Under the pieces are notes generated by a model. That model was given only the letters and a program-made list of their open reading frames with translations. It searched no databases and was not told the origin of the DNA. Position numbers and translations under genes: made by a program. This document shows, piece by piece, positions 9,620 through 32,298 of a stretch of DNA of 64,000 nt (within the stretch, counting starts at the first letter, position 1; every line of letters begins with the position of its first letter). This stretch comes from Pseudomonas sp. G.S.17 (GTDB lineage Bacteria; Pseudomonadota; Gammaproteobacteria; Pseudomonadales; Pseudomonadaceae). The stretch is taken from assembly GCF_038096165.1 (NCBI RefSeq), contig NZ_CP151076.1:4647501-4711500 (forward strand). The letters run 5' to 3'.

Positions 9620-9724
9620 CTCAGCTCTCCGCTTGAGGGCACGCGAAAGCAGACGGCTGGCAATAGAAAATGACTGGCAGCACGACTTTCGTCATGCCCA
9701 GAGCATCGCCCGCCGTGATGCTAT

Positions 9725-9905
9725 TGAATGGATCAGGCCGGTCTCCGGGCTCATGAGCGGGAAAATCCCGACTGTGCGCCTTCCCATGTCCTTGCGGACA
9801 CAGTGGCATGAAGCACAGCTTCACTCATCTACCGTTGCGGGGGCAGCACCGGGATTGGTCGCCATGGGCGTCCTTACCGGTTTCCCTGTTTCACTCAAGC
9901 AATCC
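9725..9905 (-). ncRNA. Cobalamin riboswitch
   Basis: Reading the minus strand, the region shows the cobalamin aptamer landmarks in order. They are GGGAAACCGGT, then GGTGCTGCCCCCGCAAC, GCCACTG, and the B12 box GAGCCCGGAGACCGGCC at about 9735-9752. It ends about 105 bases upstream of the cobO ATG. It should repress the cobO-to-cobQ block, and perhaps the distal cob genes, when adenosylcobalamin is plentiful. I did not identify the expression platform with certainty. Confidence 0.92.
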
Positions 9906-10046
9906 GGGGATTTTGAGCACCTGAAACAAAGGGCGCAGGTTAGAGCGTTGAGGTTTGAGCGTCAATCAACTCAGCATCGGGTTGAACCTCGAAAGCCCAG
10001 ACTTCTCTATCTATTACTGGACCACTGCCCGTTATGGAGATCGATC

Positions 10047-19610: not shown

Positions 19611-19699
19611 GTTGGCGAGGCTTGCCCGCGAAGGCGTCATCTCCGGCGATAAAAGTGTCGAATGAAATACCGATTCGCGGGCAAGCCTCGCTCCAACGG
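19611..19699. repeat. REP pair
   Basis: Inverted arms GGCGAGGCTTGCCCGCGAAG and CGCGGGCAAGCCTCGCTCCA surround about 45 bases. This is the GCTTGCCCGCG variant of the common class, just after the terminator. Confidence 0.85.
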
Positions 19700-19707
19700 A
19701 ATTGATC

Positions 19708-19875
19708 CGGCTTTTGATTTTCGCTTTTCCTGCCGCTATCTGGCAGACACCGCCAAACGCGCGTCGGGAGGCTGAGCGCAGATGGTTTCGTCCTTTTGCC
19801 GAAACAAAAGGACTCGACCGTCAGGGCGAAACCTCAATACGCCGCACCGCGAATGCTGTTGGTGCCACCCATTTA
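19708..19875 (+). repeat. Structured dispersed repeat, short copy (about 165 bp)
   Basis: This sequence recurs in inverted orientation at 26941-27239 with an extra internal block. Shared words in order are GGCTTTTGAT, CACCGCCAAACGCGCGTCGG, GGTTTC, an inner hairpin, TCGACCGTCAGGGC, GAAACC, and GCCGCACCGC...ATGCTGTT. The core is an outer 6-bp stem GGTTTC (19784-19789) / GAAACC (19828-19833). It encloses a 9-bp stem GTCCTTTTG / CAAAAGGAC with loop CCGAAA. The other copy keeps the same geometry with three compensated pairs, which suggests selection on structure. Like the other copy it lies downstream of a gene, here DUF3108. The rest of the gap up to 20105 shows nothing else definite. Confidence 0.75.
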
Positions 19876-20105
19876 GAAGCGCGGCGCCGGTGATAAATGG
19901 TGGTTTCCAGGAGCGCAACGACCACATGAAAAAACCTTCATTTACCCGAAAATCCCCCACAACCCAGACAATTCAAGGCCTGCGGCATTCCCTCCATTTG
20001 CGCAACAAACTCTTGCCCGTCCTGGCTATTTACTCAGGAACCTAACAAATCCTATAACAGAGACCTGCGACACATCGCCGCAGCCTCAAGTCAGGAGCCT
20101 GAACC

Positions 20106-26670: not shown

Positions 26671-26940
26671 GGCGTATTCGCAATCCAGACTGCGGGGGCG
26701 CCTATCATAACGGCAAACGCCAAAACCCCATATCACGCAAAGTGCGGGGGTTATCGCTAAAAGGAATAAGGCGCTATGCCGCGCCGCTATTCGTTGCAAG
26801 GCTTGTCTGCGAACTTGGATATCCAACGGGTGCGATACTTGCAAATCATCGTGGGACCGGATTTATCCGGGAAGGGGCCGGCTCAGACAACCTAGCTGAT
26901 GGGTTTTCGCGGCTGGCTAAGGTTCTATTGCTTTTTGAAT

Positions 26941-27239
26941 TGGGTAGCAACAACAGCATTTGCGGTGCGGCTTATAGAGGTTTCGCCCTGACGGTCGACC
27001 CCCTTTGTTTCGGCAAAGGGGGGAAACCATTCTGCGCTGACGTCCGGCCCCTGCTTCGCAGCGGTTCCTTCGCTCCGGTGTCGTGGTGGGGCGACGCGCC
27101 GACGCGCCATCCCTGGCGCAACGGCGCTCGCTCGGCATCCATGCCGAGCGCACCCCACCACGACACCTCCACTCAGCCTCCCGACGCGCGTTTGGCGGTG
27201 TTTGCAACATCTTCGTACGGAAAAGCGAGATCAAAAGCC
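26941..27239 (-). repeat. Structured dispersed repeat, long copy with palindromic insert
   Basis: This is the second copy of the repeat at 19708-19875, inverted and longer by about 125 bases. The conserved core has GGTTTC (26979-26984), a 14-base spacer, the stem CCCCCTTTG (26999-27007), loop, CAAAGGGGG (27014-27022), and GAAACC (27023-27028). The extra block has perfect 15-bp arms at 27077-27091 and 27153-27167 (GGTGTCGTGGTGGGG and complement), with a 10-bp hairpin CGCTCGGCAT / ATGCCGAGCG inside. It begins right at the pirS-like stop. Small frames across it are probably spurious. The rest of the 569-base gap upstream of cysM holds a half REP (26857-26882) and no gene. Confidence 0.75.
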
Positions 27240-28604
27240 TCAGTTCTTCGCCAACAACCGCATCTTCAATCGCAACCCGCCTTCGATGTTCTCCGCCCAC
27301 AACATCCCGCCCTGCAGGGCCAGGGAGTTGCGGGCGATGCTCAGGCCGAGGCCGAAGCCTCCATTGCCGGGGCGGGAGCCGTCCAGGCGAGTGAAGGGCG
27401 CAAATATTCGCTCCAGTTCGCCCTCGTCCACCCCGCCGCCCTGATCGTCGAGCCAGAGTTGCCAGAATTCCCCGTCATGCTTGCCACTGAGGCGCACGAT
27501 GCCTTGCGGCGGTGAATGACGAATGGCGTTGCGCAGAATATTTTCCAGCGCCTGAGCCAGGGTATTGAGGTGGCCACAGACCCAGCAATCGGCGTCGAGA
27601 TCGCACTGCAGCTGGGCGGCGGGCCAGCCGCTTTCGAAACAGGCGTTCTCGGCGAGCATTTCCCAGAGCGCCAGTACCTGAATGTCTTCCTTGGGCAGTT
27701 GCTGACGCTCGGTGTCGAGCCAGGCCAGTTGCAAGGTGTCATCCACCAGACGCTGCATGCCGTCCACCTCACGGCCGAGGCGCCCCCGCAAATCGACGAG
27801 GCTTTGCTCACTCTCGCAGGCCACCCGCAAGCGGCTCAAAGGGGTCCGCAATTCATGGGACATGTCGCGCAACAGTTGCTGCTGGACAGTCACGGTGCTG
27901 TACAGCCGTTCGGCCATTTGATCGAAGGCGCGGCTCAATTCACCGAGTTCGTCCTGACGATTGGTCATCTGGCTGGACAAGCGTTGCGCCAATTGGTCGG
28001 CATGCCAGGCGTTGGCCTGGGCGCGCAGGTGATTGAGCGGCTGGATCAGCAAGCGATACAACCCCACGCACAGCAGCAGGGTAAAGACCCCAGGAATCAC
28101 CCCATTGGTCAGCACCCGCCAGAGCATCACGTAATGGCCCGGCACGAAGCGTTTGGGCAACTCAATGACCAGGCTGCCCGCCGTGGGGTCCATGGGAAAC
28201 GGGATTTTCAGCCAGGGCGTGGTCCGCGAGCGACTGCTGGTGGGCCAGTCCAGGCCGCGCAAAAAAGTCATGTGCTGGCTGTCGACTTCGCTCAGCGGAT
28301 AGCTGCTCAACGATTGCAGATCAGCGCCGATCACCCCGACCCAGCCGCTTTCGCTGCGACCGACCTGCTGCAGCCAGGCGTCGACGCCGGCCTGCTGCCC
28401 GGTGACCCAGGCGCGTTCGGCCTCGGCGGCGTAATCGGTCAGGGTGGAGCGAGCTTCGTCGGACAGATACGCGTTGCGCTTTTCGGCGTAGCGACCCCAG
28501 GTCAGGCTCAGCCAGATCATCAACAGGCAAAAACCAACCAGCAGGAACGCCAGCTTCCAGAACAGCGAATGTTTGCCCGGTAGACGGGAAAAGGACTCAA
28601 TCAT
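27240..28604 (-). CDS. Sensor histidine kinase, PirS/PfeS-like
   Basis: The 454-residue membrane kinase has two transmembrane helices (about 17-37 and 163-187) around a periplasmic sensor of about 125 residues. A HAMP-like linker follows, then the HisKA box DMSHELRTPLSRLR with H250, and an HATPase domain (N box LENILRNAIRHSPP, G boxes DDQGGGVDEGE and GFGLGLSIARN). In PAO1 the pair at this locus, PirR-PirS, controls the enterobactin receptor PirA. Position and size fit PirS, but pirA is absent here, so the name is not assigned. It overlaps the response regulator gene by 8 bases. Confidence 0.85.
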   Translation of the reverse strand: MIESFSRLPGKHSLFWKLAFLLVGFCLLMIWLSLTWGRYAEKRNAYLSDEARSTLTDYAAEAERAWVTGQQAGVDAWLQQVGRSESGWVGVIGADLQSLSSYPLSEVDSQHMTFLRGLDWPTSSRSRTTPWLKIPFPMDPTAGSLVIELPKRFVPGHYVMLWRVLTNGVIPGVFTLLLCVGLYRLLIQPLNHLRAQANAWHADQLAQRLSSQMTNRQDELGELSRAFDQMAERLYSTVTVQQQLLRDMSHELRTPLSRLRVACESEQSLVDLRGRLGREVDGMQRLVDDTLQLAWLDTERQQLPKEDIQVLALWEMLAENACFESGWPAAQLQCDLDADCWVCGHLNTLAQALENILRNAIRHSPPQGIVRLSGKHDGEFWQLWLDDQGGGVDEGELERIFAPFTRLDGSRPGNGGFGLGLSIARNSLALQGGMLWAENIEGGLRLKMRLLAKN

Positions 28605-29328: not shown

Positions 29329-29544
29329 TATCTTTCGCGACTAATTCTCAATCGCCGATTATTCAAGATTGACGGGGGATGAGCAAGCAGGCTGAAGGCT
29401 GTTGACGTATGGCAGGTCCATGCCTGACGTGTGGCGCTGTAAGATGCCGAGATTGCAGGCGCTCAAAATCGCTACACTGCGTGAGTATTGGCCTGCGCCG
29501 ATGCTGAACCGAGTCTGGACATCCTGGCCTGCTGGAGAAAGAGC

Positions 29545-32298
29545 GTGCTGAACAAGCTGGGCATCAAAGGCCGCGTACTGCTGCTGACCATCCTGCCCGC
29601 CAGCCTCATGGCTGCGGTACTGGGCGGCTATTTCACCTGGATGCAGCTCTATGACCTGCAAAACCAGTTGCTGCAGCGCGGGGAAATGATTTCCGAAGAA
29701 CTGGCGCCGCTGGCAGCACCCGCGCTGGGTCGCAGCGACAAGGTTTTGCTGGAGCGCATTGCCGTTCAGACCCTGGAACAGACCGATGTGCGTTCGGTGT
29801 CGTTCCTCAGCCCGGAACGCGAGATCCTCGCCCATGCCGGGCCGAGCATGATCAACGAAGCACCCATCGGCAGCGCCACGCACCTGCTGCAACGCTCGGG
29901 CAACGATGCGACGCGCTATCTGTTGCCAGTGTTTGGCCGCCAACGGCATTTGACCGGCGCCATGGTGCCCGAAGAAGCGGATCGCCTGCTGGGTTGGGTA
30001 GAGCTGGAACTGTCCCACACCGGCACCTTGTTGCGCGGGTATCGCAGCATGTTTGCCAGCCTGTTGCTGATCGCTGCCGGCCTGGCACTGACCGCCATGC
30101 TCGCGTTGCGTATGAGCCGCACGATCAACGTGCCGATCACCCGCATCAAGCAGGCCGTGGCCCAACTCAAGGACGGCAATCTGGAAACCCGCCTGCCGCC
30201 GCTGGGCAGTCTGGAACTGGACGAACTGGCCTCGGGCATCAACCGTATGGCCGCCACGTTGCAGAACGCTCAGGAAGAACTGCAACACAGCATCGATCAG
30301 GCCACCGAAGACGTCCGGCAGAATCTGGAAACCATCGAAATCCAGAACATCGAGCTGGACCTCGCCCGCAAAGAAGCCCTTGAGGCCAGCCGCATCAAGT
30401 CCGAATTCCTCGCCAACATGAGCCATGAAATCCGCACGCCGCTCAATGGCATTCTCGGTTTCACCCACCTGCTGCAGAAAAGCGAGCTGACCCCGCGCCA
30501 GTTTGATTACCTGGGCACCATCGAAAAATCCGCCGACAGCCTGTTGAGCATCATCAACGAGATTCTCGACTTCTCGAAGATCGAAGCCGGCAAGCTGGTG
30601 CTCGACAATGTGCCCTTCAATCTGCGTGACCTGCTGCAGGACACCTTGACCATTCTCGCCCCGGCCGCCCATGCCAAGCAGCTTGAGCTGGTGAGTCTGG
30701 TGTATCGCGATACGCCGCTGTCGTTGCTGGGTGACCCGTTACGGCTCAAGCAGATCATGACCAATCTGGTCAGCAACGCCATCAAGTTCACCCGCGAGGG
30801 CACCATCGTCGCCCGGGCCATGGTCGAAGACGAAACCGAAGACAGCGCGCAGTTACGCATCAGCGTGCAGGACACCGGCATCGGCCTTTCCAGCCAGGAT
30901 GTGCGCGCGCTGTTCCAGGCCTTCAGCCAGGCGGACAATTCGCTGTCGCGGCAGCCGGGCGGCACCGGGCTGGGACTGGTGATTTCCAAACGCCTGATCG
31001 AGCAGATGGGCGGCGAGATCGGCGTGGACAGCACCCCCGGCGAAGGCTCGGAATTCTGGATCAGCCTCAATCTGCCCAAGGCACGGGACGATATCGAAGA
31101 CCTGCCAGCGCTGCCATTGCTCGGTTTGCGCGTCGCGGTCCTGGAACACCACGACCTGGCGCGCCAGGCACTGGAGCATCAACTCGAAGACTGCGGCCTG
31201 GACACGCTGGTGTTCAATAATCTGGAAAACCTGCTCAACGGCGTGACCGCTGCGCACCAGACTCCGGCAGCCATCAGCCTCGCGGTGCTGGGCATCACGG
31301 CCCACGAACTGCCGCCGGAACGCCTGCGCCAGCACATCTGGGATCTGGAAAACCTCGGCTGCAAAGTTCTGGTGCTGTGCCCGACCACCGAACAGGCGCT
31401 GTTTCAGCTGTCGGTGCCGGATATCTATACCCAACTGCAGGCCAAACCGGTCTGCACCCGCAAGCTTCGCCGCACCTTGTCTGAACTGATCATGCCCAAG
31501 GTCATTCGCAGCGATGCCGTCGAACCGCTGTCCAGCCGACCTCCGCGCTTGCTGTGCGTGGACGATAACCCGGCGAACCTGTTGCTGGTCCAGACGCTGC
31601 TGGAAGACATGGGCGCAGAAGTGGTCGCCGTCGACAGTGGTTATGCTGCGTTGCAAGCGGTGCAGGCCGACACCTTTGATCTGGTGCTGATGGACGTGCA
31701 GATGCCGGGCATGGACGGTCGCCAGGCCACCGAAGCCATTCGCGCATGGGAAGTCGAGCGCCAGAGCTCATCGCTGCCCATCGTCGCCCTCACGGCTCAC
31801 GCCATGGCCAACGAGAAGCGCGCCCTGCTGCAAAGCGGCATGGACGATTACCTGACCAAGCCCATCAGCGAACGGCAACTGGCCCAGGTGGTGCTCAAAT
31901 GGACGGGGCTGGCCCTGCGCAATCAGATGCCGGAGCCGCGCGCCGAGAAAGCCCGAGGCAGCGCCGATCTGGACGTCCTCGATAATGAAGAAGGCCTGCG
32001 CCTGGCCGCCGGCAAGCCTGATCTGGCGGCCGACATGCTGGCCATGCTGCTGGCCTCCCTGGAAAGCGACCGCGAAGCGATCCGCACGGCACGGGAAACG
32101 GATGACCATGCCGGTCTGATCGAACGGGTCCACCGCCTGCATGGCGCGACTCGATACTGCGGAGTTCCACAGTTACGTGCCGCATGTCAACGCAGCGAAA
32201 CCCTGCTCAAGCAAAATGCCCCGGAAGTCCATGAGGCTCTGGACAACCTGGAAAAAGCCATCAACCGCCTGACCATCGAGGCGCGGGTGAGTGTTTGA
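29545..32298 (+). CDS. gacS: Hybrid sensor histidine kinase GacS
   Basis: GacS is the global sensor that phosphorylates GacA and so drives small RNAs of the Rsm system, which control secondary metabolism and biofilm. With the GTG start at 29545 (GGAGAAAG upstream) the protein is 917 residues. It has an N-terminal helix, a periplasmic part and a second helix near 165-190, then HAMP, and HisKA with H294 in [10 protein letters not shown]. The HATPase, a pseudo-receiver-like region, the receiver with D717 in [10 protein letters not shown], and a C-terminal HPt with H863 in [12 protein letters not shown] follow. All three phosphorelay residues are intact, so the gene looks functional despite frequent gac loss in culture. 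Confidence 0.97.

Follow-up and report, generated by a model that had tools for sequence, protein, structure and literature searches.

REPs are short palindromes of some 20-40 nt, single or arranged as inverted doublets, whose subfamilies probably match different RAYTs. Intergenic repeats were reported by Silby et al. 2009 (PMC2718517) in the Pseudomonas genomes SBW25, Pf0-1 and Pf-5: R178 (101 bp, with internal 11-bp inverted repeats) has 18, 28 and 9 copies in these genomes, and R200 (320 bp) has 47, 0 and 8. Families of stem-loop sequences have also been described in P. putida and P. aeruginosa (PMC2267715, without sequences in its accessible text).

At the RNA level, one of the closest described systems is TwoAYGGAY. 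Weinberg et al. 2010 list it in a table (PMC2864571), and with Rfam 15 its covarying pairs increased by two (PMC11701678). Binding by CsrA, a protein with a preference for short hairpins that expose ANGGA (PMC7366521), has been proposed for this motif on the grounds of its loop consensus (PMC4333381). The ingredients of the element described below are partly known, namely TwoAYGGAY, MITEs and, probably, R178/R200, and are linked here; no open-licence title or abstract opening joining TwoAYGGAY, Rsm/CsrA and repeat or mobile elements was found.

Two hairpins from a dispersed repeat

The window analysed here is a stretch of 64,000 nt from the chromosome of Pseudomonas sp. G.S.17 (G000, hereafter the own genome). 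A first-pass annotation had reported in it two copies of a hairpin, which reading the sequence again confirmed letter for letter (Table 1), together with three differences between their stems (positions 1, 2 and 5), at each of which pairing is kept. The 3′ 20-mer common to both copies, TCGACCGTCAGGGCGAAACC, occurs at exactly two places in the window when up to 3 mismatches are allowed, against a mean of 0.03 matches, a maximum of 1 and never two in 100 shuffled windows. The similarity between the copies reaches ~75 nt further 5′ and ~50 nt further 3′ than had been described, and copy 2 has an extra module of ~130 nt, matched by the Rfam family TwoAYGGAY, which copy 1 lacks.

Table 1. Features of the two window copies, in window positions.
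Feature	Position	Strand	Basis or remark
Inverted REP-like palindrome pair directly upstream of copy 1	19612..19695	.	named by eye
Copy 1, short form without TwoAYGGAY module	19709..19899	+	comparison with 13 other own-genome copies; ends approximate
Conserved 5′ block CACCGCCAAACGCGCGTCGGGAGGCTGAG...	19748..19779	+	own-genome blastn and copy comparisons
Copy 1, GGTTTC	19784-19789	+	
Copy 1, 5′ stem arm GTCCTTTTG	19790-19798	+	
Copy 1, loop CCGAAA	19799-19804	+	
Copy 1, 3′ stem arm CAAAAGGAC	19805-19813	+	
Copy 1, TCGACCGTCAGGGC	19814-19827	+	
Copy 1, GAAACC	19828-19833	+	
HP1 copy 1, variable covarying stem, loop CCGAAA	19790..19813	+	sequence, covariation, arm-swap, RNAalifold
HP2 copy 1, TCG-A-CC/GTCA/GG-G-CGA (earlier 'spacer')	19814..19829	+	terminal-pair count, RNAalifold
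HP3-like segment	19842..19867	+	stem suggested by eye from sequence comparison only
Copy 2, long form	26930..27239	-	ends approximate; starts right after sensor kinase stop codon (gene 27240-28604)
TwoAYGGAY module copy 2 (RF01731)	27070..27174	-	47.7 bits, gathering 43
TwoAYGGAY loops copy 2, C-ATGGAT-G and C-AGGGAT-G	27142-27137; 27114-27109	-	sequence
Copy 2 hairpin, order as copy 1, stem arms CCCCCTTTG/CAAAGGGGG	27028 to 26979	-	
HP1 copy 2	26999..27022	-	sequence, covariation, arm-swap
HP2 copy 2	26983..26998	-	covariation, terminal-pair count

Elsewhere in the window there are a Cobalamin riboswitch (9719-9939, minus strand; RF00174, 94.7 bits) and a hybrid sensor kinase (29488-32298, plus strand), whose best NCBIfam match is BarA (823 bits, below the cut-off of 890). 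The latter is probably GacS, the head of the Gac/Rsm cascade, and its proximity to copy 2 (~2.3 kb) is probably a coincidence.

When the own genome was queried with 125 bases of copy 1, 29 blastn rows resolved into about 14 related copies, some of which carry the extra module of ~130 nt between the conserved 5′ block and the hairpin. The covariance-model search across genomes that had been proposed earlier was carried out with R1, a model of the hairpin domain, which matches 21 places in the own genome and is found in 33 of 57 genomes, among them 32 of the 36 that belong to the genus and a single one that does not (the own genome is counted in the 33 and in the 32), with 15-45 matches per genome in five chosen ones. 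Searched as a plain string with up to one mismatch, the 20-mer occurs in 6 of 95 genomes, the own included; the narrow reach of the 20-mer against the wide one of R1 indicates a widespread family in which stems and loops change. Carriage by plasmids or phages was discarded, since copy 2 as query gave no match among plasmids (72,556 records) or phages (50,697 records).

A scan of named genomes with CCGTCAGGRCGRAACC returned at least 120 stretches, and the 80 loci listed include many chance matches in unrelated genomes; R1 at E 0.1 matches 25 of the 26 loci picked by eye from those 80. One R1 match (34.9 bits) lies in a gammaproteobacterial MAG (L118:539-602), so that the hairpin domain may also occur outside Pseudomonas. 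In a spirochaete MAG (L065:7160-7235), the sequence GGGTTTCGCCC...GGGGCCATGGATGGCCCCGTCAGGGCGAAACCC resembles parts of the module and has no R1 match.

Predicted ORFs flank each of the 14 copies examined, and 10 of the 14 are downstream of a co-directional one, as judged from heuristic ORFs, among which the right-hand ORF of copy 1 is doubtful. The repeat is a dispersed, intergenic, multi-copy element of ~0.3 kb in its long form. An ORF (19782-20045) does overlap copy 1, and a coding constraint, or plain coincidence, could in principle account for the resemblance between copies; however, the stretch that runs from GGTT to the 3′ terminus measures 48, 49, 50, 51, 53 or 54 nt in copies with a short loop (two are longer), which breaks any frame, and both the placement between predicted ORFs and the structure tests given below speak against this reading, whose probability we consider negligible.

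Regarding previous descriptions, the first-pass annotation had not recognised the hairpin as a known family. This holds for the hairpin itself, since no Rfam family matches the copy 1 region (19690-19920) even at E 1, but not for the element that carries it, which in copy 2 includes TwoAYGGAY and which probably belongs to the R178/R200 repeats of Silby et al. 2009, with which it was compared by description only. The genus fits, as do the intergenic position, the range of sizes, the copy numbers and the internal 11-bp inverted repeat, whereas the accessible text of that paper (PMC2718517) mentions neither a structure nor a link to TwoAYGGAY nor sites of insertion. As with REPs, REPINs and their RAYTs, we deal with dispersed extragenic palindromes, and REP-like palindromes adjoin not only copy 1 but several other copies in the own-genome comparison; the repeat, however, is longer (about 0.2-0.3 kb), has several structured domains and is not a REP doublet, and so falls outside the REP/REPIN class.

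Structure of the hairpin domain

The first-pass annotation had seen an element with a 9-bp inner stem, a 14-base invariant spacer and an invariant outer stem GGTTTC/GAAACC, and regarded it as structured. The inner stem, hereafter HP1, is indeed structurally constrained, as shown by double changes and by the stability of its own arms, but neither the outer stem nor the unstructured spacer survived the comparison of copies. The segment TCGACCGTCAGGGCGA forms by itself the hairpin TCG-A-CC/GTCA/GG-G-CGA, so that most of the supposed spacer and the GA of the supposed outer stem belong to a second stem, HP2. The outer stem was rejected as a family feature: it is confined to part of the family, GGTT is missing from the first 14 nt in 51 of 79 sequences, and RNAalifold, on a MAFFT alignment of 18 sequences, recovered the two hairpins without it; only 2 of the 10 pairs in that alignment showed double changes. 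Three of the 79 sequences end in AAGG instead of AACC. Isolated 51-mers fold discordantly, with a minimum-energy fold that gives the earlier stem in copy 1 and pairs GGTT with GACC in copy 2. At the level of the whole long form, the minimum-energy fold of copy 2 (291 nt) has a z of -5.29, and 0 of 200 shuffles were as good.

Covariation was examined in 71 distinct sequences aligned with R1. Paired cells amount to 85.5%, versus 75.6% in shuffles, and 116 cells show a double-sided change that keeps the pair, versus a shuffle mean of 41, whereas further pair types (16 versus 16.5) give no excess on this one of five measures. Sliding the stem partners lowers all five. For the three outermost pairs of the stem, the alignment shows pairing in just 54.8% of cells; they are poorly aligned because the stem varies in length. 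Kinship among the copies inflates the shuffle tests, for which shuffles and slides served as controls, and the alignment itself was fitted to the structure. Two tests are independent of that fit. HP1 folds at -13.6 kcal/mol with its own arms and at -7.3 kcal/mol with the arm of another copy, and of 3548 combinations with swapped arms, 224 do as well (from 62 distinct sequences, as 9 of the 71 rows were unparsed and left out). HP2 was examined at its terminal position, where pairing is kept in 63 of the 64 rows parsed (T-A in 34, C-G in 29, A-G in the remaining one), against a shuffle mean of 47.5 and a maximum of 55, with 7 of the 71 rows unparsed and left out. HP1 and HP2 are kept by compensatory change, and this tail of the repeat is a real, evolving structure with no description in Rfam.

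The upstream TwoAYGGAY module

In the copy 2 region, TwoAYGGAY is the sole Rfam family to reach its gathering cut-off, and the module contains two hairpins with AYGGAY-like loops (ATGGAT and AGGGAT) inside a closing stem; its match ends 34 nt before that of R1. The association is strong in one direction: R1 follows 56 of the 57 TwoAYGGAY matches listed in three genomes, on the same strand and at gaps of 23-59 nt (28 of 29 in G017, 15 of 15 in G010, and 13 of 13 in the own genome, for the 13 listed of its 17 matches). The reverse linkage is weaker, with 28 of 35, 15 of 15 and 13 of 21 R1 matches, respectively, following a listed TwoAYGGAY. These counts indicate that, in the three genomes, TwoAYGGAY is, where present, the upstream domain of the element, and that the hairpin domain also occurs without it. 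More widely, TwoAYGGAY is found at E 0.01 in 22 of the 57 genomes (19 above the cut-off); of the 33 R1-positive genomes, 20 have it and 13 have no match at E 0.01, while two genomes (G063 and G077) have TwoAYGGAY without R1. Its dispersal as a mobile repeat is absent from the accessible text of Weinberg et al. 2010 (PMC2864571).

ANGGAN hairpins with 4 or more stem pairs number 79 in 72 segments upstream of the hairpin domain, which are related copies rather than independent samples; 50 shuffles gave 1.7 on average and 5 at most. Two such hairpins occur in 32 segments, one in 15 and none in 25, that of copy 1 included. The loops, mainly ATGGAT and AGGGAT, mostly follow the form C-ANGGAN-G with changing stems. 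They fit the CsrA/Rsm consensus ANGGAN, which makes a role of the repeat as a decoy RNA plausible from its sequence. Like the Rsm/Csr decoy sRNAs (RsmX/Y/Z, CsrB/C), the repeat would expose ANGGA in hairpin loops, often paired; in contrast to them, it is multi-copy and polymorphic, has the extra HP1/HP2 domain, shows neither promoter nor terminator in the window copies by consensus scans, and its binding is putative.

A role of this sort could be taken further, with the repeat as a sponge useful to the host, whose multi-copy transcripts would titrate RsmA/RsmE in bulk in the manner of RsmX/Y/Z. The C-ANGGAN-G loops on changing stems, the CsrA binding proposed for TwoAYGGAY (PMC4333381) and the preference of CsrA for short ANGGA hairpins (PMC7366521) all agree with this possibility. 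However, TwoAYGGAY matches are missing from many copies and from 13 of the 33 R1-positive genomes, and at the two window loci no copy is present in the other orthologous loci fetched, except for that of the sister genome at copy 2 (see below), so that we regard a bulk sponge as rather unlikely. The same 13 genomes slightly lower the decoy reading and that of copy-number tuning discussed at the end, and slightly raise one in which the hairpins act as DNA.

Presence, absence and mobility

Copy 1 sits between a DUF3108 gene and the genes for DUF2058 and MazG. In the sister genome G022, where the DUF3108 gene is 98% identical, this site is empty, and no R1 match (E 0.1) was seen there or at the 28 other orthologous loci fetched, the gene having a match in 118 genomes. 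At the copy 2 locus, the copy present in G022 is inverted and has a different HP1 stem, and no copy was present in the other 28 loci fetched, where the downstream gene is not always the same. Another 12 copies served as queries against G022, and the sites of ten were compared (L004 found no counterpart, and the hit of L011 was left out): five sites have no R1 match (L002, L003, L006, L010 and L013), four are filled (L005, L008, L009 and L012), and at the L022 locus there are two copies in another arrangement.

Some junctions lie at REP sequences. For the pair L003/L260, the filled site reads CCGTAG/ATACTC...ACATACA/AGGAGCGG (slashes mark the limits of the insert) and the empty one CCGTAGGAGCGG, which is REP-like. 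At L010 and L013, a REP sequence is repeated on both sides, and there recombination between REPs may fit as well as insertion. The right end CTGRCRACATACAAGGA has 18 matches in the own genome and G022 with up to 2 mismatches, 10 of which carry the repeat, including all 7 of those with at most 1 mismatch.

A second type of evidence comes from the arrangement of copies in relatives. In five chosen genomes, R1 neighbours within 1.5 kb comprise 31 divergent, 3 convergent and 1 same-strand pairs, while no paired copies were found in the own genome. In one relative, G015, 12 of 14 divergent pairs lie 503-516 nt apart from start to start, and the paired modules can be aligned across ten loci. Inverted ends of 19 bp, GGTTSTTCRCGRAATYCCG (up to 2 mismatches), delimit nine units there, 529-1118 bp in size; these ends may be of ISL3 type. 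Eight of the nine units are flanked by duplications of 7-8 bp at A/T runs, and one is not. The duplications are TTTTTTAT, ATAAAAAA, TTTTTTGA, AAAAAAAA, three AAAAAAA and one TTTTTTT; five of the eight are homopolymers, weak singly, and the three of mixed letters are stronger. These units may be MITE-like; the window copies show no such ends or duplications, and the cargo is here a pair of conserved structured modules. End pairs of this type were absent from G000, G022 and G017, that is, they occur in one of the four genomes searched. The duplications in G015 make it unlikely that all empty sites are secondary deletions and, as judged from these genome comparisons, the repeat is mobile, coming and going between close relatives.

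The placement of the copies also bears on another possible function, in which insertion downstream of genes would provide a 3′-end hairpin acting as terminator, attenuator or stabiliser. The position of the 14 copies relative to predicted ORFs would agree with it, as would the A/T runs in which the G015 units lie and a terminator-like stem found directly before the unit of L354. The scan of the window copies, however, found no terminator. In two paired G015 units, it is the opposite strand on which HP2 reads as a weak terminator, which fits this function in part only; we find it improbable.

As to what could move the repeat in the own genome, one RAYT-type (PF01797) and 12 IS110-type (PF01548) matches were found, and REPs are described as targets of IS110-family elements (PMC1525189; PMC11187229). 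One IS110 group of seven copies sits in REPs, as GT/AATTGG...CATACAT/AGGACC, and the right end of the repeat, ACATACA/AGGAGC, resembles its right junction, although no inverted ends shared with the repeat were seen. These IS110 elements are a lead as candidate mobilisers. The seven IS110/IS1111-like copies (L280-L286; 376 aa), joined on their right side to REP-like sequence at GT/AGGACC, have subterminal inverted repeats TGGATGGACTCGCCC or its complement.

Another reading is that HP1 and HP2 act as DNA, as single-strand or cruciform sites near both ends of a paired unit for a transposase or recombinase, with HP1 subfamilies matching different enzymes. The RAYT-type and IS110-type matches would be compatible with it, and so would the outward-pointing placement near both ends of similar-sized units, the discrete self-complementary versions of the stem within one genome, and the hairpin domain of genomes without TwoAYGGAY matches. 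The orthologous copies L012/L248 also carry different HP1 stems, each self-complementary (CCCCCCTTTG versus CCCCCATTTTG), a difference due either to compensation in place or to conversion by another copy. On the other hand, the 19-bp inverted repeats of G015 lie outside the hairpins, which are therefore not the termini there, and in the TwoAYGGAY loops the N positions of ANGGAN change but GGA is kept, a pattern that argues for RNA in this module. We consider a DNA role for the hairpins doubtful.

A proposed explanation

Our preferred explanation, which we hold as reasonably likely when taken as a whole, is that the hairpins form the 3′ structural part of a non-autonomous mobile Pseudomonas repeat, made of HP1 and HP2 followed by a third hairpin-like segment. 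The repeat would be moved by a transposase supplied in trans, possibly of ISL3 type in one lineage and of IS110 type, or linked to REPs, in the source lineage. Selection would act on the folded RNA strand, where the C-ANGGAN-G loops of TwoAYGGAY could bind Rsm/CsrA dimers, and the HP1-HP2 domain could cap or protect the transcript. The two window copies would be solo half-elements of what elsewhere is often an outward-pointing pair.

Several observations sit uneasily with this explanation. Consensus scans gave no promoter or terminator inside either window copy, and no promoter in two paired G015 units. The inverted ends are known from a single genome, and the own genome has no paired copies. 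TwoAYGGAY is not universal, and the 25 upstream segments without an ANGGAN hairpin have to be reckoned with, as well as the junctions at L010 and L013, which are as REP-recombination-like as insertion-like. Neither is the orientation of the copies with respect to the upstream gene consistent, with 10 of 14 co-directional.

A bolder version, which appears unlikely to us, would see the outward-pointing pair of RNA modules as the cargo of the element, which would spread Rsm/CsrA-binding RNAs into terminators and REP clusters and tune Gac/Rsm by copy number. With tens of copies per chromosome, a module of TwoAYGGAY plus its HP1-HP2 cap would then operate in a large part of the genus.

For TwoAYGGAY, known since 2010 and with a proposed link to CsrA, these results provide a larger context, a genomic behaviour, and a set of natural copies and empty sites, so that the questions about its function (binding, transcription and the effects of copy number) become directly testable. 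They also suggest that repeat families and RNA motifs listed in separate catalogues may belong to a single element.
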